This document shows, one piece after another, positions 928-62,086 of a DNA stretch of 64,000 nucleotides (positions within the stretch are counted from its first letter, which is position 1; each line of letters opens with the position of its first letter). The notes under the pieces were generated by a model. It worked only from the letters and a program-made list of their open reading frames with translations, was not told the origin of the DNA and ran no database searches. The DNA comes from Chloranthus sessilifolius (lineage: Eukaryota > Streptophyta > Magnoliopsida > Chloranthales > Chloranthaceae): contig CM037593.1 in NCBI GenBank assembly GCA_021018995.1, positions 15,032,088 through 15,096,087 on the forward strand, written 5' to 3'. A program made the position numbers and the translations under genes.

Positions 928-1118
928 CAAGGATCAAAATTTCAGCCGAAATGATCGAAATTTCAATCCAAATTATCGGTTTCGGTCCTCACCAAAACGA
1001 TAATTTGGACCGAAATTTTGGTCATATTTTGTATGGGATTGAAATTATCGGCCAAGATTCAGATTTTCGGTTTCAGTCCCCTTCGAAACCGAAATGAAAC
1101 CCGAAATTTTGATCCTTG
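928..1118. mobile_element. hAT-like MITE, CGAAATTTCGG subfamily
   Basis: The ends are perfect inverted repeats, CAAGGATCAAAATTTC and its complement. They are flanked by near-identical 8-bp duplications, CTTTAAGA (920-927) and CTTTGAGA (1119-1126). The 191-bp body is filled with AAATTTCGG/CCGAAATT-type words on both strands and has no coding capacity. An 8-bp TSD is typical of hAT transposons. The superfamily assignment rests on TSD length and TIR similarity to the transposase-bearing copy at 30254. Confidence 0.85.
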
Positions 1119-1244
1119 CTTTGAGATTAGAAAGAGATTTATGAGGCTGTAACACCCTTCTCAATTAGAAAGAGCTTTCGGCTGCTTACCCAATAGTAAG
1201 CTCTTTGAAGGTAAAGAACGCTTTATGAAGATTCATTATTATTA

Positions 1245-2003
1245 GAGAAATTTACCGGATCGACCCTGTCAGATACACTTTTTCCGTCAGAGATCGTATA
1301 TTTTCACCTTTACCCAAATCGACCAACTTTTAGTCGAGCCATTTTCAGCTAGCACAAAAAGTAAGAAATATCCATTCTTACACTTTTTTTCGTTCTATAT
1401 AGTTTAAAATTTTAAATATTTGCACTTTTTTATATTTATGTGATATGAAATGAGATATATGCCGTCTGATTTGAAGGCCGTAATATAAAAATCGATTGTG
1501 CCAAAAATAGACACGAAAAAAGGCGTTATCGCTTCTTTAAAAAATAAATAAATTCAAACAGTCGATGGCGACTGTCTAAGCAATTGATGGTGACTGTTTA
1601 AATAGTTGATATCGCCTTTTTAAGCAGTTAGTATCGACTGTTTTAAGAGTCGCCATCGATTGTTTAAAGAGTCAGTATCAACTGTTTAAATTTTTTTTTT
1701 TTTTGTTTACAAGGTGATATCGTCTTTTTTTTTTCGTGTCTATCTTTGGTACTATCGATTTTATATTGTGGCCTTCAAATCAGACGGCATAGATCCCATT
1801 TCACATCGCATAAATAAAGAAAAGTGCAAATATTTAAAATTTTAAACAATGTAGAACGAAAAAAAGTATAAGAACGGGTATTTCTAACTTTTTGTGCTAG
1901 CTGAAAATGACTCGCTAAAAGCTAGTCGGTTTGGGTAAAGGTGAAAATATAGGATCTTTGACGGAAAAGTTGTATTTGATAAGGTCAATTTGGTAAATTA
2001 CCC
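1245..2003. mobile_element. Long-TIR Mutator-like MITE with 9-bp TSD
   Basis: Two arms of roughly 290 bp are inverted copies of each other (left from GAGAAATTTACC, right to GGTAAATTACCC). The element is bracketed by a perfect 9-bp direct repeat, TTATTATTA, at 1236-1244 and 2004-2012. Long terminal inverted repeats with 9-bp TSDs are the mark of Mutator-like elements. The centre carries no ORF but a six-unit tandem array (separate entry). Both arms contain the phrase TCAGACGGC/GCCGTCTGA, also seen in other MITEs of this window. The TSD is low-complexity, so its weight is moderate. Confidence 0.75.
1559..1690. repeat. Six-unit 22-bp tandem array inside the Mutator-like element
   Basis: Six consecutive units of 21-23 bp built on CGATGGCGACTGTTTAA fill exactly 132 bp at the centre of the element. 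Units vary (TGATGGTGACTG, TGATATCGCC, TAGTATCGACTG). The fifth carries the core in the opposite orientation (AGTCGCCATCG), so unit cores can pair with each other. Confidence 0.85.
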
Positions 2004-2337
2004 TTATTATTATTTAAAGGATTATATGATGGTATCTTTACTTGCAACCAATAGCTTTTGCAACCATAGATTCTTTCTTTAGTTATTAACTTTTGCAACT
2101 TTTTATATTTTCAAAAAAATTTAGGATGCTTTTTGGATAAAAAGCCACCCTCAAGTTATATATGTTGTCAATGGGCGCCTACTGATGGGTTGATGGATCT
2201 TTCAATGATCACCCACCAATAGAAACATAAAAAAATTTGTCCCGTCCTCTAATTCTTTTCTTCGGTGGACATAAGCCGTAGTAGTATTGCCGTGATTGGG
2301 AGAGGATGAGAAGAGCATACGGGTGGTAGTGTCTGGG

Positions 2338-2583
2338 CAAGGTGTCAAAGTCGGTATCGGTCTATGGATGATCGATACGACTCGATTAATACATATCGGC
2401 CTAGGTTTTAAAAAATGAAAAATAAAAAAATAGAGGTATCGGCTGAAACGGGTACCGTATCGGCCGATACCCGATACGTATTGGCTGATATGGGCTCGTA
2501 TCGGTCGATTCCAATATTGAGTTGAGATACGTATAGGTTTGCCGAGAAATCGATATCGGTATCGGCCGATTTTTTACACTGTG
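2338..2583. mobile_element. hAT-like MITE, TATCGGCCGATA subfamily (decayed ends)
   Basis: It begins CAAGGTGTCAAAGTCGGTATCGG and ends CGGTATCGGCCGATTTTTTACACTGTG. The interior is a patchwork of CGATAC, GTATCGG and CCGATAC words in both orientations. The left end matches the better-preserved copies at 5278 and 61805. The right end is eroded and no convincing 8-bp TSD is visible. Confidence 0.65.
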
Positions 2584-2849
2584 TGGGGGTGCAAAAGTAG
2601 TGGTTGGTTGGTGAGGGTGGAGAAGATGGTGGATGTGTGGTGGAAGCATAGTGGTGAGTCATGCTAGTGGTGGTAAAAGAAGAAAAAAAAGAGCAAAACC
2701 TATTTTTGCAACCTAAAAAGGTTCCACATGTGCCAGATAATAGTAAAGAAAGAATCTCTGGTTGCTATTATGTGCCACATAATAGCAAAGAATCTCTGGT
2801 TGCAAATAACAGTACCCTTCTTGATATTTTTCTATGATAAAATCAGAAA

Positions 2850-3270
2850 GGTTATAATGATGGACTAGGTCTTCGCAACTGATGGTGGAAGTTCCACCGG
2901 TAACACTTGACTTGAGATGGAGATCATTTTTCATCTCAATCTTTTGAACATCAGATCTTGAGATCATGTCCCAAATATCAAACGGTTAGATGTTGATTCC
3001 GCGTGACACATATAACCTGAGAACATTTCTCATGGTGTACCATGATCAAGATCACTTTTGGAGATGTGCCTCATATGAAACCAACATCTGACTATCTGAT
3101 ATGTGAGTCATGATCTCAAGATCTATTGTGTAATAGATTGGGCCCAAAATGATCTCGATCGTCTATTCAATGCAATCAATGATATTACCGGTGGAGCCAT
3201 CAATTGGGGAGATCGAATCGTCCCAATCTATCACACAATATATAGTGGGGAAGTGGGGACTGACTCTTCT
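2850..3270. mobile_element. Long-TIR MITE of the ATGATCTCAAGATCTATTGTG family
   Basis: The left arm (TGATGGTGG...TTCCACCGGTAACA...GATCTTGAGATCATG) is answered by an inverted right arm (CATGATCTCAAGATCTATTGTG...TACCGGTGGAGCCATCA). The arms are about 190 bp each with a short spacer near 3040. No coding capacity is seen. This is the commonest MITE type in the window (other copies at 8580, 9517, 16000-16520, 20930 and 24950). A TSD was not resolved. Confidence 0.7.
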
Positions 3271-3791
3271 CGTTCTATGGTTGAAAATGAAATATCCCTT
3301 TCATCATCTACTTTAGTGCTATTTTTATTATGACTAATACACCTTGTCCAAATCAAATGTCATATCATCTGAATTGAACTGGACAACTGATCTGGACTGA
3401 ATTGGTCACCCGACCAGCGTGGTCTGTGGTTCAGTTTTAAAACATTGACCCACTTTTGTCCTTCTTGTAGGGCAGGGTGGCTTTATTTGCAGCCCACAAA
3501 ACTTCAGGACCAACCCACATTTAGGTTGTAGTGAAAGATTTGCAAGTCACAAAGAGCATGATTCATGGCAGGTTAAACCCCGTTATCCCCGCGCCATCTA
3601 CGATTATATGTATCATTTATTTGATGCAATTTCCTCGGCCTACATTTTGACAAAGTTTTGCTTATGACATTAGAGGCTCGTAAGCCATCTATTCTAACGG
3701 GTTACGTGCCAATCAAACCCAGTTAGAAAGATTTCGAACCTGGGCTGTATTTAAAGACTTGTAAGAAAAAAATAAATAAGGGTATATTTTA

Positions 3792-5277: not shown

Positions 5278-5553
5278 CAAGGTATTAAAATGGGTATCAG
5301 TCTCTGATATCAGTTTGTTGGAGGCCGATACGTATTAGCCGATACATATCGGTTGATACAAATACGTATTAGTCAATAAAAAAAAAAAGTCTCGATGGAA
5401 ATCGAGACGTATCGGCTGATACCCGATACGATCCCGTATCGGCCCACACGTAACAGCGATACCGATACGCCAAACTGATACATATCGGACCAATATATAT
5501 CGGTTTGACCAAAAACTGATATGTATCGGTATCGGCCGATTATTGATACCTTG
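5278..5553. mobile_element. hAT-like MITE, TATCGGCCGATA subfamily
   Basis: The ends CAAGGTATTAAAATGG and ATTATTGATACCTTG are inverted repeats. They are flanked by CGCATAAG (5270-5277) and CGCATAGG (5554-5561), an 8-bp TSD with one mismatch. The 276-bp interior is dominated by GATACGTATCGG and CGGCCGATAC words, many self-complementary. ORFs crossing it are by-products of the repeat. Confidence 0.9.
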
Positions 5554-6015: not shown

Positions 6016-6284
6016 GGCCCTATTTAATAGCAATGAAACTCCAAAGAGGAAATAAAATCAATTTCTTAGTTGATTTCCTGATAAATGATTTCTTCTATAA
6101 ATGAATTTTTCACTGTTTGATTAGTGTGTTTGAAAAATGAATTTCATTGGAAATTGATTTCTCTTGTTTAATTAGTATCTTTAAAAATAAATTTGAGAAT
6201 TAGTTTTTAAGTTTTGATCATTTATTATTAAAATTATAATTAAAGTGAAATATTAATCAATAATTTTTTTAATGATATTCTATT

Positions 6285-6532
6285 TATAGTGCGAAATTTC
6301 GCCGAAATTCGGCGAAATTTCGCGAAATGGAGGTCAAACGAAAATTTCGGGAAAATTTCGATTTTCGGTATTTTTCGGTAAATTTTTTTAAAATATTTAA
6401 AAAAATATTAAAAAAATATTTTTAATCTCCGAAACTTTCCCGAAATTTTTCCGAAAAGTATCGAAATTAATCCGAAATGTACCGAAAGGACCCCCCACCG
6501 AAAAATTCCCGAAAACGAAATTTGTCACTATG
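6285..6532. mobile_element. hAT-like MITE, CGAAATTTCG subfamily, nested in the Harbinger-like element
   Basis: The left end TATAGTGCGAAATTTCG (with a small internal loss) pairs with the right end CGAAATTTGTCACTATG. Flanks ATTCTATT (6277-6284) and ATTATATT (6533-6540) are an 8-bp TSD with one mismatch. The body is CGAAATTTCG, GGAAAATTTCG, TTTTTCGG and complementary CCGAAA words around an AT-rich core. It closely resembles the 12912-13206 copy. Confidence 0.85.
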
Positions 6533-6589
6533 ATTATATTACGTTATAAATTAATATCATAGTAATTATTATTTATTATTAAGTTACAT

Positions 6590-8050
6590 AAATAAGAGTT
6601 TGAAAAGTTAAACTCAAATAAAAAGTCAAACTTTGACCAAACTTAAAATTTTGATAAAAAAATATGTAAAGTTAAATAATAAAGTTGTAAATGTTAGTAT
6701 CTAATGTAAGTTTATACGTTAAAATGGAATGAAATTTTTATAAAAGTCAAACTTTGACAATTTCAACTTTGACCAAGAGAAAATTTTGCAATATACCAAC
6801 AAGTTACAAAAGTCCAACTGCAAATTAATATAACAATATTCATATACACTGTTAGGTTACACTAGTCAAAATTTGATCAAATATCGAATTTTAATAAAAG
6901 TCAAACTTTGATCAAACGTAAAACTTTGATTAATAAAAAATTTTAAGACTAAAATACAAAATTATATAGTAAATGCTAGTATGTAGTATAAGATTACATG
7001 TCGAAACAAAATTCAATTTTTAAACTTCAAAGAAAGTTCAATTTTTTTAAAAAGTCAAACTTTGACAAAATTTTTTAACTTTGACCAATAAAAAATTCGA
7101 TAATCTACCGTCAACTTACAAATTAATATAACAGTATTCGTATCCATCGCTGGATTACACTAGTAAAAAATTTGACTAAATATCAACTTAAAAAAAAGTC
7201 AAACTTTGATCAAATGTAAAAAAAAGTAAAATAAAATATGGTAATGTACTATAAAGTAATAAATTAAAAAAATAATAATCTTATTGGGGATACAGAAGTT
7301 TAAAAAAATTAAATTATTTTAAAAGTCAAAGTTTGACCAAATATCAAACTTTGACCGATAAAAATTTACATTACCAAAATACAAATAATAACAGTAATAA
7401 TCACTATCAATTATCAAGATACACTTCTCAAATTTTGATTACAGTTAAAATTTGAATAAAAGTCAAACTTTGACCAATAAAAATGAGTCAATGTATTTTC
7501 AATTTATAAATTAAAATAATGATAAATATTTTTAATTATAATATTTCACTAATAAAAATATATAACATTTTATAGAAAATCGAACTTTGACCAAAAGTCA
7601 AACTTTGACAAAAAAAAATTGCACTAATACGGTATAAATTTATGTAGTAGTAGACTCCAGCTATAAGCAAGTTTTGAGTTTGACTAAAAATAAATTTTGT
7701 ATAAAAGTTAAAGTTTGACTAAATTGTATTAGTCAAACTAATGACTAATACAATTGAGAATCTAATATACATCAATGCGGCAATATCATTTTTTCGCCAT
7801 CAAATTATTGGAGCTAAAGTTTAATAAAAGTAAAGTTTTAATTAAAAGTTAAAGTTTAACCTTAAAGTCAATCTTTGACTTCTAAAAATTTGATAATATA
7901 TTACTAACTTACAACTTATTATCATGTTTCAGTAGTTAAAGTTTGATCAAAAGTCAAAACTTTATATAACTTATAAATCCAATTAAAGTTTGATTAAAAT
8001 GTAAAATTTGACCAAAGTCAAATATTAGCTGAAAAGAGTGTGATATAGAT
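6590..8050. repeat. Degenerate GTCAAACTTTGAC array
   Basis: AAGTCAAACTTTGACCAA-type words recur at about 6632, 6754, 6899, 7054, 7198, 7325, 7462, 7588 and 7705, spaced roughly 120-155 bp. Longer phrases (AAATTAATATAACA...GGTTACACTAGT near 6822, and its match near 7125) recur at about 300 bp. The motif is close to self-complementary, so it appears on both strands. No ORF runs through it. Confidence 0.8.
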
Positions 8051-8579
8051 AATGTTGTGGTCATAGTGATCGTGTTGGTATGATGGTCATAGAAATTGAA
8101 GTTACTGTTTAATAGTCAAAAAATAATTTTTTGTCTTTTGGCTTTTTACAAGTAACTTTAGATTTGCAATAACAAAAAATTATTATTTTGTCATTAAGAA
8201 ACTCAATTTTAACCACTTAAAAAGTTGAAATGATTTCCTCTTAAAATAATTTGATGTATGAAAATTCAATTTCCATGCGGAGCGACTTAATTTCATTTTC
8301 ATCTCCTTAAATAGCTATCAAACTGTATCAATTAGAAACTAAATTTCATTTCCACAATAAAATTATATTTCCATGTCATCAAATAAGGCCTAAACGTATA
8401 TTCATTTTTAATAGCCTAGATAGAATACAAGGAAAGAACCTAAATGAGACACAACATCTACTCGCATCTCTAATTTAAAATTATATATAGAACAATTAAA
8501 TAATTTTTTATTTCTTTTATAAATATGAGATCGGTTTATGCACTGAACATTCTGTCTTTGCTAACATTCGGTCTTCGCT

Positions 8580-9191: not shown

Positions 9192-9392
9192 TATGGATTA
9201 AAATATCGTCCGATATCGATACGTATCAGTATCGGACATGGATAATATATTTAATATATTGTTTGATATATTCAATTGTATGATATGTATCGAACAAGAC
9301 ATTTAATGTATCGTTCGATACGGATCGATACCAATACGTGCTAGTTTTCCGGTCAAACGATATGTACCGATTTTCCGACATTTTGATCCATG
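9192..9392. mobile_element. hAT-like MITE, ATCGTCCGATA subfamily
   Basis: The ends TATGGATTAAAATATCG and CGACATTTTGATCCATG are inverted repeats. The interior carries CGTCCGATATCGATACG, TATCGGAC and ACCGATTTTCCG words. Flanking 8-mers CTTACAGC and CTTATAAT agree only partly, so the TSD is decayed. It is a close relative of the better-preserved insertion at 57180-57409. Confidence 0.75.
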
Positions 9393-9516
9393 CTTATAAT
9401 TACTTCTTAACCTTTTTATTGGCCATCAAGATAACCATTTCAGAGATCGACTCTCGTCACATCAACCTATTATCAATGGACAATAGGGTTCCTTTATTCT
9501 CACCCACCGAACCTTT

Positions 9517-9838
9517 GAGGGCACCTAATATTGCTACTTTGAATCAAACGATGGAGATTATTTTTTGTTCCAATCTTCCACAAAATCGATCTTGAGATAA
9601 AGGGCGTACCATCATATGAGCAGTTATATTCCACAAGACACATATTCCAAAGAGTGACTTAAAAATCGAGTTTGGGCATATTATTAGGCGATCAATTTTT
9701 TATTTCACATAATTTTCTGGTCACTTTTTGAGATTTGAGTTCCATAGAAAGAAAATTTGATCATTTGGAAGGTTGGGACAAAAATGATCTCAATCTTTTG
9801 ATTCAAACTAGTCAATGGATTTCCGCATTGGTGCCCTC
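9517..9838. mobile_element. MITE with GAGGGCACC ends
   Basis: The left end GAGGGCACCTAATATTGCTAC and right end GCATTGGTGCCCTC are inverted. The arms then share TTTGAATCAAACGATGGAGAT...TTTTGTTCCAATCTT with the inverted right arm. A second, partial copy ends GGTGCCCTC near 16520. It belongs to the same broad family as 2850 and 8580. Confidence 0.7.
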
Positions 9839-10706: not shown

Positions 10707-10919
10707 ATGGGAAAGCTGAGTCTTGGCAGGGTGTTGGATTGCTTTTGTCTTTCTTCTTGCTCAAGTTCTTGTTTTTGCATCAACACTTTGGAAATAGAAG
10801 ATGATGTTGAGAATGATAGAAGGGCATTGATCAGTGGTGAAGGCAATCAGATGGTCAGAATTAGGGATATTGTTGATGTTGATGAAAACCAGACATTGGC
10901 CTTTCAGCTAAAGCCCAAG
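10707..10919 (+). CDS. HMA gene exon 1
   Basis: This exon holds 71 codons from ATG at 10707 to AAG before the donor gtgaag. The chosen ATG is the first in frame that gives the conserved MGKLSLGRVLDCFCLSS start. The open frame continues a short way into the intron, which explains a longer apparent ORF ending at 10958. Confidence 0.9.
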
Positions 10920-11569
10920 GTGAAGTACTTACTGCAATACTATATACTATACAGTTAACTTTATGTAGCCTGAGAAATAATAGCCAAATGCACCACAATT
11001 ATTGTACTCCATGCTTTACCACAACCTTACCACAACTCTCTAGTTTTCATGATAATCGCCTCATCGGTCAAAATCTTGGATGTCAGGTACTTAGCTCCAA
11101 AACTAATACATATCAGACCATACCTATCAGTTATGTATCAGTCGATACATACCGATATATGGTGACCTCCGAAACCGAGACATATCTGATGACACGGACA
11201 ATGTTGTCGGGAATTTTGAGCCATAGACATGATATTAATAGAGAATATATTTTAAGATTGAGAGAAAGATACACATCTATTAGATATCTTTTTGGATGGT
11301 CTATAGCAGCATTCTTGAAGTCCTGCGATATTGTTGACACTTCAATCAGCCACCCACCCGATTTTAGAGCTATGATCCATCCAAGAGGTGGACGGTCCCG
11401 ATTGATTGGCATCGGCTTGATAAGTCCAGCATAGTTTAAAATATAATGCATGCCACCACCGAAACTTGCCGTAGTATCAATATCTAACATCATCTAATTA
11501 CTTCATATATTTTTAATCAAAAATTTGAAGCCAATAAGAAGCAGAACTTAAGAAACACTCATTTGATCA

Positions 11570-11633: not shown

Positions 11634-13000
11634 TTTATATATATATATATGGCATATACCTAATATAATCAGTTTGTATAGCTGATATTACATTCAAGGT
11701 ATCAAATATGAGCCGATTCCAATGTGTATAGGCACTCTGATACATTTTGAGCATCCAACTTGATATCGGTATGGGAGGCAGATACGTATCGGTATCGGTC
11801 CTCCAAGGACTGATGCCCAGTACCGAGTTTGTTATCTTGATAACATTTATACCTTGTACCTATTTTGGAGGGCTGCTATGCACAACACTTTTTTTCTTCC
11901 CGCACACCCATAAAACAAAAGTAGAGTAAGTGCCAAGATAGCAAAAATATGTGTACACTTAGAAACAAATGTTTTACGAGAAAGAAAACAGAATTGGGAA
12001 AAGTTTGTCTGCATCCAAGGCTGCTATGGACACATTTTTTGATAAGTAATACAGATTGTGGATCTTTGTTGCTTTAGCAACAGAAAAGAAAAAATTATTA
12101 TCATATTTTTTGTTTCAATAATTGGTGTTGGGTAGAAAAAGTTGGTGGGCTGCTAGAGGTGGTGTGTGAGAAGAAAAGCATATTGTGCGCTTAGATGCCC
12201 ACTATTGTGTAGTGAAAATTGCAAACAGTGGGCAGGTTTTGTGCTGGCAACTGATGTGGTGTGACGTGATTGGCTGCCCCGACCTTCAGTGCTTGAGCCC
12301 CACTGCACTTGCAGCCAGTTGGATCGCTCCACATCAACTGCCTGTACAAATCCTGTCTACCATATAGCACCGTCCATTATGTATACTGCCTTACAAATAC
12401 TATGCAATGCTCATGGTTAGTAACTGATATCATTTCCAATATATAGCCGCCATATATTAAGAGCTAAGAAGTGAGATACAATGAATCAGTGTACTATGAT
12501 ATCATTTCTCATTCTTCCGCACTCATTTAGATATGAGACCGGGGGATATAGATTGGAAGAATTGTGGATCATGCATTCTAACCTCATACGCAATCATGCA
12601 AGGGATCGAGTGTCACAACAACTTGGCCCAAAGACAATCAAATCTATTTGAAAAAGAAAACAATTAAAAAGGTAGAAATCTTATGTCCAAAATGTGAACA
12701 AATGGAAAAAAAAATTAATGCATCAGAATGTTTGGAGTGGTACCCAAACTTTAACAAAAGTTTTACCACCAAAAGTATTTTTTTGAAAATTTTTATGGTA
12801 GATTATATGCCACATGAGACATGATCCCAAAAGGGCTGTTATTTTGAGATGATGTGCCACATAAGGTGCCTTTATAATTCAAATGTATGAGTTCTTCCAT
12901 CATGTTCCAACCATAGTGACAAATTTCGTCGAATTTCGCTGAAATGGGCGTCAAACGAAAATTTTGATTTTTAGTATTTTTCGGTAAATTTTGCTATTAA

Positions 13001-13078
<78 letters not shown>

Positions 13079-13615
13079 TTATTATTTTATTTTTAAATTT
13101 TATTTTTTAATCCTCGAAATTTTTTTAAAAGGTATCGAAATTAATCCGAAATATACCGAAAGGATCCCCCACCAAAAAATTTCGGAAAACAAAATTTGTC
13201 ACTATGGTTCCAACTCATTCTTTTTCCCTTATTTTTTTATATGTCGTGTATATGTTAATAATGTTGTATTAATGGGTTGTGTAGATTGTAGTCCTAAGGG
13301 TATCCATGCATTGCAATGGCTGTGCAAGAAAAGTTGAGAAACACATCTCAAAGATGGAAGGTACAAATCTTAGTCTTTCCCTATTTTCATAAGGATAAAG
13401 TTAGGCTCGTATCATGGACCACATAACTTATGTGGTCTAGGCTAATTTGTAGTCACATGCCACTCAATCAAATTGGATGCCATTGATATGAGCGGTTTGA
13501 TAATGTTACAATTATTTTGTGTCAAAAATTAAAATAAGAAATATACATCAGGTCAAAAGAGTCAATTGTATATAAAATGAATGATAAAACAAACGCTTGA
13601 ATCCATTGACTATAC

Positions 13616-18760: not shown

Positions 18761-18929
18761 AAAAAAAAATGACTAAAATATATACTAACATATTTAAAAT
18801 TAAAAAAAATAATTTTAAATATATAATGGGTGTGTGAAACTTGTCACACACATTTTAAACACTAAAATCGTGTTTGGAATTTGGATGATCATAGCCGATT
18901 AAATTAAACACCAAAATGGTGTCGCTGGT

Positions 18930-44649: not shown

Positions 44650-44657
44650 CCTATTAC

Positions 44658-49238: not shown

Positions 49239-49302
<64 letters not shown>

Positions 49303-49581: not shown

Positions 49582-50160
49582 CAGAATCACATGGTGATTC
49601 CTACACAAATATTTTTTAATTTACTTTTTTGTCACTGTCAAATACAGTGAATCACCATATGTGATTCGCTGCCATAGTTTTTATTTTGTTTCTCTAAACA
49701 GTGTAATTTGATACAGATAATAAAAACAATGTAATTTTATTTATAAGAGAAAATAAGAGAAAGAAGAAGACCTACAGAGAGGTCTGTGACTGTGTATTTC
49801 TAATTTTGATTTATTTATTGTTTTTCGCGAGCTTCTAGTTAGAAATTTTTTTTCTTTTATTTTTTATGATTTCATCTGTGAATTGGAGAGGGGAGCAAAT
49901 TCAGAGTTTCGATGTGTTCCTGTTGTTGGAGTTTGTAGTTTTTTTTCTCCCCTTTCTAGTCATGCGAGTTGTAATAAACGTTCTTTTATTTCTGGAGTTC
50001 ATGTTTTTTTATATGTTATACCTTTTTTTTATATCTATAATCCAACAATATTGTTGACTATGGTTATCTGTTATTTCAATTTATCGTTTGTTTATGGTCA
50101 CTACTCACAATGACTCGTGTAAATCAGTAAATGTATTAATATAATTCTTAATTCTTACAA
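49582..50160 (+). other. Leader-like region upstream of a hAT first exon
   Basis: It starts with the hairpin GAATCACATGGTGATTC. It holds at 49637-49690 an inverted near-copy of 39898-39950 (GTCAAATACAGTGAATCACC, CATAGTTTTTATTTTGT). An AGAGAAAGAAGAAGACC leader follows, like that of other hAT copies. Short frames at 49866-50113 are probably chance. Confidence 0.4.
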
Positions 50161-50200
50161 TTGATAGAGTCTGATTTTTTTCACCTTTATTTAGTAAACA

Positions 50201-50553
50201 TGGCTATGGCTAGTCAAGCATCCACCTCTCAAGAAGTAGAAACCTCCCGTTTGTCCGACCCTGGTTGGGAGCATTGCACTGCAGTCACTGCTGACAAGAG
50301 GAGAGTGCGATGCAATTATTGTGGGAAGGAAATGTCTGGTGGCGTAAATCGGTTTAAGTACCATCTTGCTAAAGTCTCTGGGGATGTCAAGACATGTTCA
50401 AAAGTTTCGGATAAGATAGCTGCAACAATGAAGGAGTTCTTGAGTGAAAAAGGTAATGAAAGTAAGAAGCGGAACGAATATAGGAGTAATTTAGGGGTTT
50501 TTTATTCAATTATATTATGCTTGTTGACTTGTTGCAGCATGTGTAGTGTATAA
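50201..50553 (+). pseudogene. hAT transposase first exon with intact BED finger
   Basis: From ATG at 50201: MAMASQASTSQEVETSRLSD, PGWEHCTAVTADKRRVRCNY, CGKEMSGGVNRFKYHLAKVS, then GDVKTCSKVSDKIAATMKEF. The Cx2C...H...C BED zinc finger is complete, unlike the copy at 31 kb. The frame runs out after KKRNEYRSNLG and no later transposase blocks follow up to 51300, so this is a truncated copy. An upstream in-frame ATG exists at 50161. Confidence 0.8.
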
Positions 50554-51300: not shown

Positions 51301-52172
51301 CATAGTTTTTAAAGCCTTAAGCGGGGCCTAGGCGGTGGACCCCTCTGAGGGTAGCAGGGCCTAGGCGGGGCGAGGTCTAGTATGTTGCATTTTGTTACTT
51401 ATTATAATGATCTATAGAAGATTTGTAATAAATGATAAATATGTGAAAAATAACAAATAATGATAAAATGTGATTATATACTTCCGTTAGTATCAACCGT
51501 TGTATAAAAATTATAGGTTAAAAGAGTGAAGTAACCACTAGAATCTAGCAAGCAGCAATTAGCAAATTATGTAAACAGAAATAATAAATTACATTTATTT
51601 TGAATTTGAAAGCATAATAGTTTTGGACTCTTTGATTTCTAAGGGCATCTATTGATCGGTAATATTCAAATCTAGAGTTAATTTGATACAATTGATACCT
51701 TTCTAGAAAACTTTCAAAATAGTGATTTTATTTCGTTCAAATTGATCCGTTTAAAAGATTGGAAAAATTGAGTTCTTATGGGATTGAGCCTTTATTCAAG
51801 TGGTGATGCCCTCAAGCATGTAGTTTGAAGTCAGGGGTTTAAATTGTTAACTCCTATTTTTTTAAGGTTTTAAGGATGACGCTTGCGAGTTATGATTGTT
51901 TTTCTTCTAGCAAGGGAAAAATAAACCATTTGCAAAGTTTGGTGCCGTATTTTCATATCCCTTAATGCCATTTGGCAGCCCTAAATCATCATCATCATAG
52001 CCTTATCCCATCTATTTGGCCTACCTAAATGCTCTCCCAGAAATCTGACATGTCTCCTTATGGTTCCTAAAGCAGGTAAATTATAACCAGGCTATGCCTA
52101 GGCGAGGTCACCCTGCCTAAACATGGCATAGGTGCCAAGGCGGCAGTCTAGGCACAAATATTGACAACAATG
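51301..52172. mobile_element. hAT-like element, GCCTAGGCGG subfamily
   Basis: The left CATAGTTTTTAAAGCC with GCGGGGCCTAGGCGG and GGGCCTAGGCGGGGCGAGG answers the right CTATGCCTAGGCGAGG, CCAAGGCGGC and GTCAATATTTGTGCC-type complement ending CAATG. Flanks GTTCAAGC (51293-51300) and GTCCAAGT (52173-52180) are an 8-bp TSD with two mismatches. No transposase. Confidence 0.7.
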
Positions 52173-52745: not shown

Positions 52746-52936
52746 AAAGCCTGCTGCTGTGACTTCTGAGTCACTGATCTGGAGGATTTCGGGAGTTGTT
52801 AACCTGGTGTTCTGCCCTGGATTGTGAGTCACATGTGGTTGAGTTATTATCGAGTGTTTCTTATCCTCTGAAGTCCTAATTTCTACTAGAATACAGTCCT
52901 TTTTTCTTTTTTTTTGATAACAGATTAGAATGTATT

Positions 52937-55900
52937 AAATCAAATAAGAAATTACAGCTAGAGAAATAGAGGGAGGAACAGATTCCATCCAAACTTGGGC
53001 CTGGGAAGATATTCTAGCCAAATTAGCAAGGGCATGAGCGATAGAATTGGAGGCTGAACATAGAGAAGAAAGGCTTAAGAGAAATAATGTCTTTAACTAT
53101 CATCGAGAGGGCCGATAAGTCCTCATCTCCCAGGTGCACCATATTGACAGCATTTACAGCATCAGATTCGACAATAATGTTGTGGAGTCCAATATCCTTC
53201 GCCAGCTTGATTCCATCCAAAAGGGCAAGCAATTCAAGATGAAGAGCGCCAGTAGTATTATCATATCCCTTACACATTGATGCTATCACTAAGCCTTCAT
53301 GGTCCCGAATTACCTCCCCTATTCCAGCCATTTGGTTGTTCTGCTGCCAAGATCCATCAACATTAACTTTATAAATGCCGAGAGGAGGTTTGCACCACTT
53401 TGATGGATCAACTTGGGGTTGGTTCTCATGCTTGGAGTTGGCCTTTATAACTCATAAAGCAGTCCCTCAGCGTAGGAAATCTGCTGTACCGGATCACCCC
53501 CTTTATCACCATTGACTATCTTGTTTCGATAATTCCAAATAGCCCAAGCCACCATTAAGAAGAGATTAGCAACCTCCTCCTTCTCCTTTAGGATAGTATT
53601 GTACCATTCATAGAAACTGTTAGTTAGGTGTATCCCACTTTGCAGTCCCAGAGATGATGAGAGCCAGAGCCTTGCAGCCGAAGGGCAGTCCTTTCAAGCA
53701 TGAATAACAGTTTTAGGGTGTTGGCCGCAAACTCCACAAATCGAATCATCAGTCACCTTCTTTCTCACTAGGTTATCCCTGACTGGTAAGATGTTCTTGC
53801 AAGCCCTCCATACAAAAATTTTGGTCTTATTAGGTATGTTACTCCTCCATAGCCTTCTCCAAAGAGACTCTGATTCATTCCTACTCATTCCTCCTGTCAA
53901 TGAAACCGGCTGAAGCGATTTCAAGGTGACATGGTAAGCACTCTTAACTGAGAATTGCCCATTGTTAGTACAAGCCCAAACAGCTGTATCATTTGATCCA
54001 TGTGCCGGCAGGGGGATCTGATAAATAGCATCGGTGTCTTCAATAAAAAACTCGTCTCAGATAAGTGTAGATTTCCATCTTTGGGGCAGCCCCTCTATGA
54101 GCTCATTGACGAAGGTAAAACTTTTGTTTTCCTTTGGAGTGAAAACTTGAAAAGTGGAGGGTCGTGGGATCCATTTATCATGCCAGATATTGATGGATTG
54201 GCCATTACCGACACGCTTGATGAGGCCTTGTTCCAAAGTCTCCTTCGCACCCCAAATGCTACGCCATGTAAAAGAGGGATTATACCCAATTTTAGATTGC
54301 ATGAATGATGAGGAATGAAAGTACCTCGCCTTCAAAGTTCTAGCTGCAAGCGATTGAGGGTTTTTAATGATGTGCCAGCCCTGTTTTGCTAGCATAGCTT
54401 TGTTGAACGCTTCCAAAATTTTGAAACCCAAACCACCTTCTCTTTTATATTTAGCTAACTGTTGCCACGAGACCCAATGTAGTCCTTGGAGTTTTTGACA
54501 ATTCCCCCACCAGAAACGAGTGATACACGAGGTCATTTGTTGAAGAAGACCCGTTGGGAGTTGAAAACAGCTCATCGCATATGTTGGAATTGCTTGGGCT
54601 GCCCCCTTGATTAGAATTTCCTTCCCCGCCTTAGACAGGAGGTTATCTTGCCAGCCTTGGAGTTAGCGCCAAACTCTATCCTTTATATATCCAAAAGTAC
54701 TCTTTTTTGCTCTTCCCAAGAAAGATGGAAGTCCCAGATACTTCTCGTGCGGGTTAGCGGATTTTATGGAAAATAGGTTCAGCAGCTACGATTGACAATT
54801 TGCGGGAACATTTGCGCCAAAGAACATGGAGGATTTCGCTAGATTGACCATTTGACCGGATGTCATTTCATATATTTTCAGAATATTGATGATCTCCCGT
54901 TCCTCCACCATATTAGCTTTGAAAAAGAGAAGACTATCATCTGCAAAAAGAAGGTGTGAGAGACGAGGTGCGTTTTTACAGATTTTCACACCAGAAATCT
55001 TCCTGTTAGAAATCCCATGAGAACACATAGAGGAAAAAGTTTCAACACAAATTATAAATAAGTAGGGAGACAAAGGGTCACCCTGTTGGAGGCCTCTCGA
55101 TGGAGATATGAACCAGTTGATGAAGCCGTTAACTAAAAAGGAATAGGAGACTGTGGACACACATTTCATGATACGATTTATCCATCTCCGGTCAAAGCCA
55201 AATTTAGTAAGGCAATCTTCAAGGAAACACCATTCCACACGATCATATGCCTTACTAATATCCAGTTTTAGAGCACAAAAGCCATCTTTTCCTTGTTTTT
55301 TGAGAAGTGCCCAATCTCATACGCCACCAGGATGTTATCAGTCGGCCCGGGACAAAAGCGCTCTGAAAAGGTGAAATGATGGATGGGAGCACAATCTTTA
55401 GCCGATTAGCTAACGCCTTTGCAATGAGCTTGTAGACAACATTACATAGGCTAATAGGGCGAAAATCTTTCATTCATTTTGGTTTCTTAACTTTTGGTAT
55501 AAGAACAATATGTGTGTGGTTGATAGGTGTGATATCTGAAGTACCATTCAGAAAACCCAGTACGATTGACAGCACATCAACATGAATAATATTCCAGAAT
55601 TTTTGAAAGAAGAGAGCTGGCATACCATCTGGCTCGGGAGATTTGAGCGGGTGCATCTGGGAAAGCGCCTTCCGAACTTCACTGATGGTGAATTCTTTTG
55701 TTAGTTCACTGTTCTGCGATGTGGTCACCTTAGGTTGGATGGCTGAGAGGGCAGTAACAGTTGAGTCTGGTATGTTCGAAGAGAACATCTTTTTATAGTA
55801 ATCTTGAATGATCTATTGGACATGCTCAGTGTCTGTTCTCCAATTCCCCTGGTTATCAGTGAGGCCTTCTATGTGATTTCTTTTTCTCCTAGCTGACGCC

Positions 55901-57015
55901 TTTGAATGGAAGTATGCAGTATTTCGATCCCCATCCTTCATCCGCACCTCCCTAGATCTCTGTCGCCACATCGTCTCCTGACGTGAAAGTAGTTCATTAA
56001 TCTCCAATGGCAGCGATTTAATCGCCCATTGACCAGATGGGCCATGGAGGTTATTAACTTGGGCAGCTTGTAGTTCAATCATTTTTTCTTTGAGCTTGCA
56101 CTCTATGTTGCCAAATGTCGATCGGTTCCAACTGCCAAGGAAACTCATCAGCTGATCTGTCTTGGATATATAGTTCTGCGCCAGTTCCCCAATTGATAAG
56201 GTGAGCTCTGACCACTTGTTTTGGATTAGATCTTCAAAATTCTCCGCCTTAACCCACATTGCTTCAAATCTGGTAGGTGTTTTTTTGCTCCAAGAGAGTG
56301 TGCAACCTGCTGAAAATTGAGGTTAATAACAATAGCAATAGGATCAGATCTGGACATTACCTGGTTGATAACTTTGTAATTCGGGAAGATGTTGCACCAT
56401 TCAGAGTTGCTAAGTCCTCTGTCCAATCTCTCTTGCATGAAATCGTTATCTTTCCCTGCCATTGCTCCAAGTGAAGTTTGGTCCGGAATATCCAAGGTCC
56501 AGAAGCTCACAATCGTCCAGACATTTTCTGAAGCCGTTCATCTGAGCCCAGCTACGCCTCCTAGAACCAGATTTTTCGTGTTGATGCAGGATCTTGTTGA
56601 AATCCCCGGCTGCCATCCAAGGTAGTTGATTCCTTCTCTGCAGTGATCGAAGCAGGTTCCAAGTTTCAAACCGAGCATTGGAATCAGGTTCCCCATAAAT
56701 CCCCGTGAAACTCCATTTGATACCATCCTCCAGATTGTTGATCGTTGTGTCATTATGTGATTTGGAGCATGATTGAACTTCAAGGTGGATTTCCTTCTTC
56801 CATAAAAGTGCGAGACCGCCAGATCTTCCTCTGCAATCCACAAACATTCCATGTTGGAAGCCTAACCGAAATTTCAAGAAATCCATCCTTTTTGAGGAAA
56901 GGAGTGTTTCACTCAAGAAGATGATGGAGGGGTCTTTAATCGTCAACAGTTGACGAAGGGCTCGAACAGTCTGGGGGTTCCCAAGCCCCCGACAGTTCCA
57001 AACACAAAGACTCAT
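52937..57015 (-). pseudogene. L1 ORF2: endonuclease, RT, RNase H
   Basis: The endonuclease (57015-56446) has MSLCVWNCRGLGNPQTVRAL, IIFLSETLLSSKRMD, TGIYGEPDSNARFE and WMAAGDFNKIL. The usual SDH box reads SRSDPIAI, so the His is lost. [45 protein letters not shown] (after an in-frame TGA at 55474 and a frameshift near 55330), GLQQGDPLSPYLFII, LLFADDSLLFFKAN. Then GGLGFKILEAFNKAMLAKQG, zinc region 53924-53694 (IFVWRACKNILPVRDNLVRK, ICGVCGQHPKTVIHA). RNase H: KVNVDGSW, ALHLELLALLDGIKLA, IVESDAVNAV, with the acidic D, E and D present, and IAHALANLA near the end. Confidence 0.92.
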
Positions 57016-58739
57016 AATGTCCGGCGGGATTGCTGAGCAATCACCGCCGATATAACAGTGTGGCCTATGTCACCATCTTCATTTCCCTTAGCTGCCTTCC
57101 CAGCCCTGGTTTCTTCCTCATTAAGCTTGGAATCATCTGAACATAGTCTTTTCCATTTCTTGTTTGGAGTGGACTGGTCCATGGATCAAAATATCGTCCG
57201 ATACCGATACATATCAGACGATACGTATCGGTATTGGAGGTGGACGATACGGTACATTAAATTTACTGTATCGCCCTTTTATATGGCAAATACCGGACGA
57301 TGCATTCAATGTATCGTCCGGTATGCTACTGTTCTGGTACGTATCGTCCGATACATATTGGTTTTCGGCTCGGACGATACGTACCGGTTTTCCGGCATTT
57401 TGATCCATGGACTGGTCCCCCGTGTCATTAGTAACCTTCACTGACATTTGTGATTTTTGGAGCGATTCATGGGTCTGTAATCGCTTCTCCCCATTCACAG
57501 TTTTCTTTGGTTCCGAGCTTCTCTCCATAATCGTTAACTGCTTGCCCCCATGTTTTCGTAAAAAATGTTTGACTCCCCGACATGAGGTGGCAACGTTTTC
57601 AACGCTTTCCATATTTTCTACTTTCTCTCCCATGATCGTCTGCGCCGATGAAATTGGTGTAGCGGTTGAGAAATTTTCGGAATTAGAGTCCAGAATCATT
57701 GGCATTTGCAGATTCACGTCCGGCTCATTATGCTCCGCCCTTATAGGGAATTCAGAGTTTGTAGGGACCCTTTTAAAAGCATATGTATTGCTACCTACTC
57801 CATCCTTACACGTGTCCCTATGCAGTGTGATGGTATCATCTTGCGGCTGTTTGGCTGCCCTCCGAGCAGGATTTCGGTCTCCGGCTGCCCTTACACTCCT
57901 ATTCGCTGCATCTTGATCAAACTCCCCTTGATCCATCCCAATGCTAGGTGTTGAAATCTTTGCTTTTGGAGCAGGGGTACTTCTCTCGTGACGAGATTTT
58001 GGTAGGGATCTGGGTGTGACCCGAAGCCAAGGTTCATACTGTTGATCATGTCCCTTAGGGTCTGTGCCAATGAGATTCGGGCATTCTCTCTCTGCATGTC
58101 CAATGATTCCACATTGGTAGCAGAAATTGGGTAAGCGCTCATATTCAAAGGGTATCCAAAGTGGTTTGTCATTCTTTAGTTCAATCAGAAATCCCCTTCG
58201 TAATGGCTTGGTAATATCCACATTTGTACGAATCCGCAAGAACTTCCCCCATCTCTTTCCATCCTGGTTCACATCGACACTCTCCACACGACCGATATGA
58301 TTACCAATCTTTGTACCAATTGTAAGATTCATAGCAGTTAACGGTAGCTCTGAAGCACGAATCCAAAAGGAGGCCCTATCAAAGACGACTTTAGAGATCG
58401 GTATCTGGGGGTCCAAATCTTTCAATTCCAAGAGGTTATTATCAAAAGACCAAGGGCCGAGATTTTGGATTCGTTGCTTCCAGGCGTCAGTAAAAATTCA
58501 AACAGGAAAGTCTTGTCATCTAGATCAGTTGCCAATGCCTCAGAGCAGTTCCATGCCTTAAGAATTGTATCCTTCATCACAGCTTTATTAAGAATTCTGC
58601 TAGTAATCACCCTGCCCAGGAGGCAATTCTTTCCCGATGCAGCAATAGATGCTGTTTCATCGTCATCTAGGAGAATTTTGTGTTGTTCTTCAGTCGTGAG
58701 GGAAAGCTTCCGTGTCCAGTCTCTCATAACATCTTCCAT
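57012..58739 (-). pseudogene. L1 ORF1: DUF4283 and CCHC zinc knuckle
   Basis: It starts MEDVMRDWTRKLSLTTEEQH. A one-base shift near 58490 separates FLFEFLLTPG from NLGPWSFDNNLLELKDLDPQ. It continues VVFDRASFWIRASELPLTAM, RTNVDITKPLRRGFLIELKN and the knuckle FCYQCGIIGHAERECPN (C-x2-C-x4-H-x4-C). This matches plant LINE ORF1 (DUF4283 plus zf-CCHC_4), an RNA-binding protein. A 230-bp MITE lies near the 3' end. Beyond it the frame continues TPNKKWKRLCSDDSKLNEEE to a TGA overlapping the ORF2 ATG (ATGA). Confidence 0.9.
57180..57409. mobile_element. hAT-like MITE in L1 ORF1, ATCGTCCGATA subfamily
   Basis: Perfect inverted ends CATGGATCAAAAT and a perfect 8-bp TSD GACTGGTC (57172-57179, 57410-57417). 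The interior is ATCGTCCGATACC, GATACGTATCGG, TATCGTCCGGTATG and similar. Counting one TSD copy, the ORF1 frame is uninterrupted across the site, so the MITE inserted after the L1. Confidence 0.95.
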
Positions 58740-58757
58740 AGGAAAAGGTAGGGAGGA

Positions 58758-59160
58758 AGGTAAAGGGAGGATAAGGATGGGGGAGACGATGGGTGGTAGT
58801 AAAATACAGATAGGATTAGAGAGGGATGAAGAGAAATGGAAACACAGGGGATTCAGGAATCCTTCCTACAAAGTGGAGAGGGCTAGGGTTTTTTAGGGAA
58901 CAGAGAGGTAAAGGGAGGATAAGGATGGGGAGAGATTGGGTGGTAGTAAATAGCAGGTAGGATTGGAGGGAGATGAAAGAAAGAGGATCACAGTGGATTC
59001 AGGAAACTCCTACAAGGGTTTTTTGTTTTTTAAAGGAAACAGAAAGGTAAAGAGAGAATAAGGATGGGGAGAGAGTAAAATATGGATAGGATTAGAGATA
59101 TATGAGAGAAAGGGAATCACATTGGATTCAGAATGCTCCTACGAAGAGGAGAGGGAGAAA
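58758..59160 (-). promoter_or_regulatory. Tandem 5' UTR monomers of the L1
   Basis: Three consecutive units start at 58758 (148 bp), 58906 (139 bp) and 59045 (about 115 bp). Each begins AGGTAAAGRGAGRATAAGGA on the + strand and contains GATAGGATTRGAG..., GATGAAGAGAAA-like and GATTCAGGAA..CCTAC. They lie directly upstream of the ORF1 ATG in the sense direction. Repeated 5' monomers act as promoters in some mammalian L1s; that role here is inference. Confidence 0.8.
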
Positions 59161-59662: not shown

Positions 59663-60707
59663 CAAGGTAATTAAGGCGGTGTGGTGAGGTCATGGCAAAG
59701 AGGCTCACCATGCCATGGCGAGGCCATGACGTGGCCATGGCAATGCCATATATTAATTTTCTATTTTTTATTTATTTATAAAGAATTAGATAATTAAGAA
59801 TCAATAATATTATATATTTATATCATTACATGGGAGCTACAACCGGCACATGAGATTTGAAGGCCATGGTGTAAACATTTGATATTTTAAATCTTTCTTT
59901 TTCCACGTGAAAAGGAAAGACTTGATATTTTTCATATCTATGCCATGTGAAACACCACCAAAGACGTATGATTTGAAGGCCATGGTGTCAAGATCTTTTT
60001 GCCAAAGTTTGGCGCTAAAAGTGATCTTTGTCATCTGATTCAACACATTCAATGACAATCATCCGATTTAATGTTTTGTGCCATCTTTGGCTGCAAATTT
60101 TTTTACACGATTGCCTTCAAATTAGACGGCTTTGATGGTGTTGCACGTGGCACAGTTCCCAAATGATGTTGTCTTTCTTTTTACCCAAAACTCAAGCCTA
60201 TACTTGGATGTGAACCATCCATTTGAACTTTAATATCAGCCACTGAAAATAAGAGCAAAGATTGGTATTAAAGTTCGCAGTTGGGATTACCAACGACAGC
60301 CATTGAAAATTTGGCGCATACAAGGGTCAATCTCAATCTATTAAACACCAACTTAGAGTTAAATGATTAATCCATCACTTTAATGGTGCATGATCAGTTA
60401 AACACCAGCTTGGTGTTTCGATTTCATATGCTTGAGCTTAAGTTATAAGTAATGACTTATAACTTAAGTTATAACTTACAAGAGTTATAAATTATAACTT
60501 ATAAACAAAATGTGTTATTATTTATAGCTTATAATCAGTTATATTACAAAATTGACACCCTTTTTTTAAAAAATTAATTAATTTTCAAATAGCACCTATA
60601 GCGGCGCCATGGCGCTATACCGCCATGGCCATTTGGAGACTTTCGCCGTTTACCTTCATATGGCGATTTCCCTCGCCATTCGCCATGGCATGGCCTTGAC
60701 GACCATG
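59663..60707. mobile_element. hAT-like element, GCCATGGC subfamily
   Basis: The left CAAGGTAATTAAGGCGG and right CCTTGACGACCATG ends are flanked by a perfect 8-bp TSD CTGTCCAC (59655-59662, 60708-60715). Subterminal zones are packed with GCCATGGCGAGGCCATG, GTGGCCATGGCAATGCC and ATGGCGCTATACCGCCATGG words. No transposase. A MITE is nested at about 59830-60190, and TTATAACTTAAGTTATAACT palindromes lie near 60450-60540. Confidence 0.92.
59830..60190. mobile_element. MITE nested in the GCCATGGC element
   Basis: GATTTGAAGGCCATGGTGTAA, AAAGACTTGATATTTT and the inverted TTCAAATTAGACGGCTTTGATGGTG...GTCTTTCTTTTTACCC arms link it to the 3792 family. GATTTGAAGGCCATGGTGT occurs twice. Ends and TSD not resolved. 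Confidence 0.55.
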
Positions 60708-60715
60708 CTGTCCAC

Positions 60716-61160
60716 CCCTCCCATCACCCCATACGTATGGGAGCAACACTAGGTAATGCCTTTTTTTTGTATTATAATATTGACGACTGCAGGTTCTCAT
60801 TAGGTGTTTGTAGGTTGGGCTCTTTACCTAGTCAATTTAGGTTCAATATTATGGCTGGGTTTGGTTACTAATTGGGCCAGCCCCTTAGAATTTGACTTTA
60901 GGCTTGGCCTGGTCACTAGGCCTAATCCATTATTCTATTCCGGGTCAGGCTTGGGTGTAGTATTTGTGGTTTGATTGAAAAATGGATTCAGAATATATTA
61001 TTTTAGGTTCAATTAAAAGTCGGGTGATTCGAGGTCTAATTCAAACCCTACTTGGCCAGAACCATTAACAGCCAAGCTGGGTCTAACAGCCTTAGGTTGA
61101 ACCTAAATGGGGTTTGGTTCAGAGGTCCTACCAAAGCCCATCACATTTATTAATCGGGCT
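60716..61160. other. No feature recognised
   Basis: GGTTTGG/GGCTTGG-rich unique-looking sequence without a coding frame. Confidence 0.4.
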
Positions 61161-61163
61161 TTA

Positions 61164-61231
61164 GGCTGTGTTTGGCATTGAGCAGCAGCTGCTCTTTTCT
61201 ACTCCCCCAAAGAGCAATGCCAAACACAACC
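61164..61231. mobile_element. Minimal Tourist-like MITE (68 bp)
   Basis: GGCTGTGTTTGGCATTG and (complement) GGTTGTGTTTGGCATTG are flanked by TTA on both sides (61161-61163, 61232-61234). They form one hairpin with AGCAGCAGCTGCT inside. It has the same terminus as 17644. Confidence 0.75.
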
Positions 61232-61234
61232 TTA

Positions 61235-61796
61235 GTTTCTGGCTTGAGCTTACTAGTTGGCCGAAAATTTATGTCTAGACCAATTCATTACAGGTCAAGC
61301 CCATTGACTCATCATGGCCCATTTGCACTGTGTAGGTTGTGCCCATTAGCTTATAATGTCCCATTTGCATCGTTATCGTAGAGCTACACACAGGTTGGTG
61401 AGTCCAGCACCATGGGCTCCCAATTCGCAGACAGGATTTAAAATTGTTCTCATGGATTGGTGATGAATGTGGGGGACTTTATTGAACCGGATTGCAGATC
61501 CTGAGAATAAGGGTAAATGCTATACTCGCTACTGAGTGGCCATCTATCCTAAGATGTGTCATGGTTCGGGTTTGGTGCGACTGTGTATGAAGTCGGAGTT
61601 GAGGTTGTCGAGTGAATCTTAGTATGTGTAACAGGTGGTGGCAACAAAATTGGATGAAAGACATGTGAATCTTGATTTCGTGATTGCTGAGGGTCATATG
61701 AGTTAGGTTGATGTTGATTTAAATTATATCGTTGAATTAAGAAAATGTTCAAATCCGAAGGTATTTTATATCTTTGGGACTCCTAGCATTTATCAG
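61235..61796. other. No feature recognised
   Basis: Short frames on both strands only; no element ends or RNA gene. Confidence 0.4.
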
Positions 61797-61804
61797 GTTA
61801 CAAG

Positions 61805-62086
61805 CATGGTATCAAAACTTGGCCAATAACGATACGTATCGGCAATAGATATCGGTTTTGTTGAGAACCGGTACTGATACCACCCCTATATAGGTATCGG
61901 TATCAGACCGATACTGACCAGTATCGGCCAATATTGACTGATACAACCATCTTTTACTTTTTATTTACATTTTTTTTTCATAGAAAAAGATATCGACTGA
62001 TACGGTATTGGCGATACCGTATTCGTATCGACTGATACATATCAGTCCAAGATGGACCAATACACGATACCAATACTGATACCTTG
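61805..62086. mobile_element. hAT-like MITE, TATCGGCCGATA subfamily
   Basis: The ends CATGGTATCAAAACTTGG and ATACTGATACCTTG are flanked by GTTACAAG (61797-61804) and GTTACAAC (62087-62094), an 8-bp TSD with one mismatch. The body is CGATACGTATCGGC, GGTATCGGTATCAG, CCGATACTGACCAG and similar. Confidence 0.92.

Follow-up and report, generated by a model that had tools for sequence, protein, structure and literature searches.

A stretch of 64,000 nucleotides of nuclear DNA from the plant Chloranthus sessilifolius (assembly GCA_021018995.1, contig CM037593.1, positions 15,032,088 to 15,096,087), referred to here as the window, is rich in transposons, among them hAT elements and the miniature inverted-repeat transposable elements (MITEs) derived from them, whose ends are packed with short DNA words that differ from one group of elements to the next. 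The explanation that we consider probable is that each class of word is recognized by the BED fingers of one clade of BED-DUF659 transposases, its own, with half-sites packed in both orientations so that a transposase multimer can place its BED domains pairwise on palindromes close to ends that duplicate 8 bp of target. We infer that the words are binding sites of the transposases, that two fingers may occupy one palindrome, by analogy with the housefly hAT Hermes, and that differing helix residues within the fingers set the differing words. In essence, several of these words occur next to the type of jumping enzyme to which they belong, an indication that the enzyme may read the word as its address.

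The transposase core would bind the terminal inverted repeat (TIR), leaving the subterminal words to the BED fingers, and on a palindrome two fingers from the same multimer could bind jointly, much as a single quasi-palindrome of subterminal repeats is bound cooperatively by two Hermes BED domains (PMC10368747; this and the other papers cited are drawn on in excerpt). An array of such words would also raise the local concentration of transposase at the ends. MITEs retain the array, and it is therefore proposed that they remain mobile by the enzyme of their own family.

Transposases and the words beside them

The window contains one element with a recognizable, if broken, transposase. E6 (30254–33603, plus strand), flanked by the perfect target-site duplication (TSD) CTTAAAAC, is the transposase-bearing element of the GAGTCGACTC class. 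Its gene relic (31002–33170, plus strand), interrupted by frameshifts and stops, retains a remnant of a BED finger, a DUF659 domain (PF04937, 4.3e-44) and, read through stops, the hAT dimerization domain (PF05699 Dimer_Tnp_hAT, 2.2e-6), which bears out a preliminary description of this DNA in assigning the elements to hAT. All of the 83 homologous proteins except P0085 carry PF04937, many of them together with PF05699 and PF02892. An open reading frame (ORF) at 50161–50553 on the plus strand encodes an intact BED zinc finger (PF02892, 1e-8) with 56% identity to the E6 N terminus over 102 aa. The ends of the element carrying it were not found, and comparison with solved structures gave no BED match. 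A second structural comparison was weak, tied with other zinc fingers; a plasmid collection yielded no match. With the queries used, E6 and this ORF were the only hAT proteins in a 284-kb sample consisting of the window, 10 kb to its left and 210 kb to its right.

Searched against the 2.17-Gb assembly, the DUF659 piece of E6 matched a close group of copies at 58–88% identity and many at ~41–50% (best 150 of 5472 candidates). Surrounding sequence was read for ten of the latter (L031–L039 and L041) and, from the close group, for the left part of L042. A BED finger of the form CxxC..H..C could be aligned in L031, L033, L037 and L039; L032 has Y in place of H, and the finger is degraded in L042 and in E6 itself. 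Transposase-bearing elements are thus known for three of the six words named in the preliminary description (GATACGTATC, GAGTCGACTC and GCCATGGC) and for two further words. L031 carries GCCATGGC words, the TSD CCCAGACC and ends resembling those of E11 (59663–60707; GCCATGGC class; perfect TSD CTGTCCAC), its relative in the window. L033, L035 and L037 have ATCGCTTAAGCGAT-type arrays and TSDs matching at 8/8, 8/8 and 7/8 positions, respectively; L041, with the TSD CTTCTACA by eye, belongs to the same family, as does L036 by its protein. L039 and L040 together make up a complete element of 5826 bp with the TSD AAAGGAAC, tips close to those of E10 and, by eye, GATAC words at both ends; the transposase of L038 is the same as that of L039. 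The left end of L032 bears CCGATCCGGATCGG.

For three words, co-location favors the transposase group to which the word belongs. Exact 14-mer counts across the genome exceeded those of the reversed form in each case (104 versus 12 for CCGATCCGGATCGG, 90 versus 0 for CCGAGTCGACTCGG and 157 versus 3 for ATCGCTTAAGCGAT), and the first 50 places of each listing were compared with transposase coordinates; all co-location figures refer to the matches listed, and expected counts presume evenly spread sites. CCGATCCGGATCGG lay within 2.5 kb of 4 of 13 copies of the L032 clade (expected 0.0043), one of the four being L032 itself, the source of the word, and of none of 24 copies in the group at 43–48% identity, which includes L038, or of 24 E6-type copies. 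CCGAGTCGACTCGG lay within the same distance of 2 of 26 E6-type copies (expected 0.0065, computed for 25), 0 of 13 L032-clade copies and 0 of 27 in the 43–48% group. ATCGCTTAAGCGAT was found near 4 of 16 non-E6 copies at 45–50% identity (expected 0.0072), none at 42–44% (0/18) and none of E6 type (0/16); all four places were 1.2–1.3 kb upstream, and none was a copy that had supplied the word. Distances to the transposases of the own group ranged from 1.2 to 2.2 kb for the three words. The values of 0/24 for CCGATCCGGATCGG with E6-type copies and 2/26 for CCGAGTCGACTCGG are recounts in which distance was measured from the start of each match.

Element ends and their arrays

The 12 elements of the preliminary description, read at both ends with their flanks, all have hAT-type ends and an 8-bp TSD, perfect in eight and with one mismatch in four, exactly as it had reported. 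Pairing TIRs by consensus alone with 3 mismatches allowed gave 50975 pairs in which perfect TSDs (9) were indistinguishable from those of four shifted controls (2, 2, 4 and 11), and this loose scan was therefore replaced by a stricter one, in which the TIR words were taken from the listed elements themselves and the TSD served as the independent test. Across the 284-kb sample, 17 of 3834 TIR-like pairs had a TSD of at least 7/8 and 10 a perfect one, compared with 1–4 and 0–1, respectively, across nine shifted offsets. E3 is outside the 17 because the mismatches in its left TIR are too numerous. Five elements beyond the earlier list, N1–N5, were added, of which N1, N3 and N4 have TSDs of just 6/8 and two, N2 and N5, are uncertain.

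The hAT superfamily has short TIRs beginning with C/T-A. The starts CAWGG.., CATAG.. and CAWTG.. agree with this, the exceptions, at base 2, being the left ends of E6 and E9. The starts in E6 (CGTGG), E9 (CCTGG) and E11 (CAAGGTAATTAA) deviate from the form given in the preliminary description, and overall at least three types of TIR can be distinguished (CAWGGATCAAAA / CAWGGTATCAAA, CATAGTSACAAA and CAWTGTTGTCAA). For E10 (57180–57409; perfect TSD GACTGGTC), a GATAC-class MITE, at least 40 copies including itself exist in the genome at 91–100% identity (best 40 of 3088 candidates). Eight of these (L001–L008, where L001 is E10) all have an 8-bp TSD, seven perfect and one with a single mismatch; three of the eight were aligned by script, and five minus-strand copies were read by hand, shifted by one base.

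Hexamers enriched at the ends of the 17 elements divide them into classes. CGATAC/GTATCG or CCGATA/TATCGG mark E10, the further GATAC-class MITEs E2 (5278–5553; TSD CGCATAAG/CGCATAGG, one mismatch), E7 (38875–39192; perfect TSD ATCTTCAT) and E12 (61805–62086; TSD GTTACAAG/GTTACAAC, one mismatch), and the newly added N1 (2338–2581; TIR CAAGGTGTCAAA/CAGTGTAAAAAA) and N2 (9192–9392), a decayed relative of E10 whose left end and TSD are unsure. CGAAAT- or CCGAAA-type hexamers mark the hAT MITE E1 (928–1118; TIR CAAGGATCAAAATTTC; TSD CTTTAAGA/CTTTGAGA, one mismatch; CGAAATTTCG-type words), E3 (6285–6532; class B TIR TATAGTGCGAAA / CATAGTGACAAA; CGAAATTTCG words; TSD ATTCTATT/ATTATATT, one mismatch), E4 (12912–13206; class B TIR CATAGTGACAAATTTCG; perfect TSD GTTCCAAC), E5 (21437–21609; TIR CAAGGMTCAAAAT; CGAAATTTCG words; perfect TSD GGCCTTAT) and N3. 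The remaining enriched hexamers are AGTCGA and CGAGTC in E9 (48095–49386; perfect TSD GTTATAAC), a non-autonomous relative of E6 in the GAGTCGACTC class, ACTCGA in E6, CATGGC and CCATGG in E11, and CTAGGC in N4 (51301–52172; TIR CATAGTTTTTAAAG/CATTGTTGTCAATA), a CCTAGGC-class element of which the preliminary description gives the word and not the start. Enrichment is weak in E8 (43588–44649; class B TIR CATAGTCACAAA; perfect TSD CCTATTAC), with its weak array of GAATTATTC-type words, and N5 (62937–63335), a weak candidate for a decayed element with a AGTCACAAAG-type end, has no clear word.

The end territory of these elements covers 5257 of the 64,000 bases, and most words are concentrated within it. 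With up to one mismatch allowed, element ends hold 20 of the window's 22 copies of GATACGTATC (1.8 expected if uniform), 10/10 of GAGTCGACTC, 10/12 of CGAAATTTCG, 5/8 of CCTAGGCGG and 4/5 of CGAATTATTC. Exact copies of GCCATGGC are all in ends (5/5), yet at one mismatch only 9 of 25 are. The observation made in the preliminary description is confirmed, with some weaker points: CCTAGGCGG and CGAATTATTC are non-palindromic, and CCGATACGTATCGG as written has no exact copy in the window (six at up to one mismatch, four of these in ends).

Palindrome arrays were assessed against 100 dinucleotide shuffles per end and 184 control windows. The arrays of E2, E3, E5, E7, E10 and N1 and those of the left ends of E6, E9 and E11 were unequalled in the shuffles; in E4, the right ends of E6 and E9 and the left end of E8, the test was swamped by AT repeats. 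Five percent of the control windows count ~7 or more, mostly as AT and ATCGAT arrays; the strongest non-AT ones (27470–27660 and 41640–42100) are TCGATCGATTGA-like palindromic arrays outside the listed elements. In E7, E10 and N1 the best 10-mer is not GATACGTATC but ATCGGCCGAT, in which two half-sites stand back to back. Among GATAC half-sites in six window elements (up to one mismatch), convergent pairs at 6 bp (13 versus 1.8 expected), divergent pairs at 8 bp (11 versus 1.8) and direct pairs at 6 bp (16 versus 3.6) are all preferred. Given this geometry, the "palindromic word" is better named a set of close-packed half-sites, often head to head.

Families, frames and rival explanations

The preliminary description saw a single hAT lineage in which the motif had turned over while the TIR stayed fixed. 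Neither part of this is upheld. A tree of the DUF659 core (90 rows entered, 15 removed for core length, 75 retained; the database proteins all drawn with the E6 query) requires at least three changes to accommodate the nine transposase rows of this genome, and its starred branches force three. L031, L033/L035/L037 and L034 fall together with proteins of Saponaria (P0032, P0038), Perilla (P0075) and Camellia (P0078); L032 and L038/L039 cluster with P0024 of Tasmannia and with P0046 and P0080; E6 sits on a long branch, its place unsure (93/5). Since rows of this genome are scattered among proteins of other plants, the word classes are old, separate families, and so there has been no recent turnover of a code within one lineage here. 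The TIRs themselves differ from one group to another, and CGAAATTTCG-type words are combined with TIRs of two kinds, one in E1 and E5 and another in E3, E4 and N3. Taken as a whole, the earlier interpretation is partly supported.

How a finger might discriminate between words is suggested by the words themselves. The frame CCGA-NN-CG-N'N'-TCGG accommodates the GATAC class (NN = TA), L032 (TC), and E6 and E9 (GT); the frame CGC-NN-N'N'-GCG accommodates L031 and E11 (CA), L033 and L035 (TT), and N4, by its word (CT). In 31 aligned BED fingers, G36, G37, R40, K42, L45 and A46 are invariant and H44 varies once, the variable positions of the helix being 39, 41 and 43; residues 37–45 of the L039 finger are helical in a predicted structure. 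Positions 39/41/43 read T/L/E in L039, S/L/K in L032, T/Q/Q in L031, G/H/Q in L037, S/H/Q in L033 and N/L/H in E6. Base contacts in Hermes come from matching helix residues, including S66, N67 and R70 (excerpted from PMC10368747), the register to the present fingers being our own reading. It is conceivable, although we rather doubt it, that the words form a compact code, in which a clade keeps its palindromic frame and each family changes the inner dinucleotide (GT, TC, TA; CA, TT, CT), to be read by helix positions 39, 41 and 43 alternating with the invariant R40 and K42 and the zinc-binding H44. The rule is post hoc, because it was derived from the same elements that it describes. It describes E4, the left end of N3, E8 and N5 badly or not at all; E3 and the N3 right end match multiple frames (AA in several), and TA and CA tie at the E11 right end. 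In the frame test, the left (8/40 shuffles) and right (2/40) ends of L039 and the right end of E6 (4/40) are not significant alone. Variation is also seen at other BED positions, and the 31 fingers include many close relatives.

Several observations weigh against reading the words as addresses of particular transposases. The pairing of words with transposase clades, which the preliminary description had put forward for checking, was followed in part: three words lie with their own group, and no transposase partners were found for CGAAATTTCG, CGAATTATTC and CCTAGGCGG. Ends were not found for L034 and L036, nor was the right end of L032, and the L039 end words are among those that fall short in the frame test. 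In the co-location test, 9/13, 24/26 and 12/16 copies in the own groups have no exact word within 2.5 kb, which we assume to reflect decay; groups were split by percent identity rather than by the tree, and the 45% cut for ATCGCTTAAGCGAT was set after the hits had been seen. One GAGTC-class word (G000:C6:55692424) lies 3.0 kb upstream of a copy of the 43–48% group (C6:55695409), so that CCGAGTCGACTCGG is within 5 kb of 1 of 27 such copies, contrary to the rule that words follow clades. Palindrome arrays were not significant against the 100 shuffles in E1, the right end of E8, E12, N2, both ends of N3, the left end of N4 and N5. Excerpted work on other systems points the same way: Hermes retains ~70% activity when its distal left-end repeats are mutated, and most of its repeats are not palindromic pairs (PMC10368747), while some maize Ds1 elements without AAACGG move and the tested Ds-l elements with it do not (PMC3260210). 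Distal arrays may therefore matter less than we have supposed.

The ends without a significant array, the occurrence of CGAAATTTCG-type words on two TIR types and the tolerance of Hermes for mutated distal repeats would all be compatible with arrays that are by-products, arising as short inverted or tandem duplications at the ends of founder copies and fixed by amplification, with a transposase that reads the TIR alone; descent by itself would also make motif and transposase co-segregate. We consider this unlikely, since near-palindromic words recur at the ends of five transposase families, GATAC words stand at both ends of the L039 element (as judged by eye) and subterminal repeats are described, in the passages available, as aiding activity in Ac/Ds, Hermes and Kat1 (PMC3260210, PMC10368747, PMC4763223). 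Less probable still is that every class is mobilized by a single transposase or a small number of them, acting through a shared TIR start and 8-bp cut, the words not being recognition specificities. CANNGT...CAAA-like TIR starts are indeed common across word classes, but three words lie beside their own group with none of the compared copies of other groups within 2.5 kb, and both the transposases and their BED helices differ by class. A host-mediated role of the palindromes, as CpG-rich targets of methylation and silencing or as hairpins, would be in keeping with the ~2.7- to 6.6-fold enrichment of CGG/CCG in 12 of the 17 elements relative to 161 outside blocks, and is very improbable given that GCCATGGC behaves alike without an internal CpG and that words differ by transposase group, a difference that a host factor would not require.

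Known systems and other features of the window

Binding of hAT transposases to subterminal repeats, which the preliminary description took as known, is indeed in print, for the Hermes BED domain (PMC10368747) and, by citation, for Ac and its AAACGG motif (PMC3260210, both as excerpted). Like the elements described here, Hermes is a hAT whose BED domains bind short subterminal repeats; its excerpted description gives one palindromic pair near the tip and another deep in the element, the remaining AAGT/AAGC sites being single and asymmetric, whereas the present ends hold dense near-palindrome arrays with a different word in each family. Maize Ac/Ds shares the 8-bp TSD and has an 11-bp TIR and multiple subterminal AAACGG hexamers to which its transposase binds cooperatively (PMC3260210, in excerpt). 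AAACGG is not self-complementary, unlike the near-palindromes found here, which go with DUF659-bearing transposases. The Ac transposase is not known to carry a DUF659 domain. The CGGBP and hAT-19 proteins, also of BED type, bind diverse motifs mostly containing CGG, and for four of four hAT proteins the motif agrees with subterminal sequence in the protein's own element; the passages at hand concern animals and a fungus, mainly hAT-19, and contain no plant families, palindromic arrays or within-genome test of motif class against transposase clade (PMC8097297). E6 and its relatives match DUF659. Kat1, a domesticated yeast hAT, has a TIR and six occurrences of the hexamer AATTCA/TGAATT, the repeats being important for cleavage, and is, unlike the families described here, a single domesticated locus (excerpts of PMC4763223).

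It is thus already in print that hAT elements have family-specific subterminal repeats, that BED domains bind these and that their motifs are diverse. Of 5.39 million open-licence PMC papers, 76 contain one or more of the six words as text, with no plant hAT family among the 40 titles listed, and topic searches of open-licence PMC papers gave none with palindromic subterminal arrays among the matches listed; plant hAT families whose palindromic arrays are matched to transposase clades within one genome were likewise not found in that literature among the matches listed. How a transposase discriminates its own copies from similar ones, and how such specificity changes, has usually been approached one element at a time. 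A single genome holding the words, fingers and MITEs of several families side by side makes it possible to match finger residues to DNA words, and, were the rule of frame and dinucleotide true, orphan MITEs could be assigned to the transposase that mobilizes them by sequence alone.

Some elements interrupt or adjoin one another. N3 (18644–22426), a class B element of 3.8 kb with the TIR CATAGTGACAAATTTCGTT at both ends, holds E5 nested within it. It was considered as a transposase-bearing partner for CGAAATTTCG and set aside, the six frames of 18644–21436 containing no hAT domain and matching no hAT protein; none of the N3-like copies examined by eye adjoins a found transposase (best 40 of 1405 candidates). 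Its 5' part (18660–19300) is common to many copies in the genome, with duplicated segments. By eye, a GATAC-class MITE lies at ~1080–1390 of L041, inside the transposase gene of a CTTAAG-class transposon, so that one class interrupts another. Class B and GATAC-class elements stand 18 bp apart at L017:8322–9268 and 9287–9548 (142322–143548 in the extended window), both flanked by perfect 8-bp duplications (TTTATAAC and GTTATAAA).

Other features were noted by eye. A PIF/Harbinger-like element at 6016–8390, with TAA flanks on both sides and the TIR GGCCCTATTTAATAGC / GGCCTTATTTGATGAC, contains E3, and its interior is full of near-palindromic GTCAAAGTTTGAC-like words. Two opposite-strand copies of a small element carrying the palindrome-like GAATCACATGGTGATTC lie at 39890–39965 and 49582–49720. 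Minus-strand ORFs at 43000–46600 and 52900–58800, one of which is overlapped by E10, appear to be relics of long interspersed nuclear elements (reverse transcriptase, endonuclease). Exons resembling those of a heavy-metal-associated isoprenylated plant protein gene are located at ~10708–10931, 13283–13370 and 16889–17010, its introns filled with transposons.

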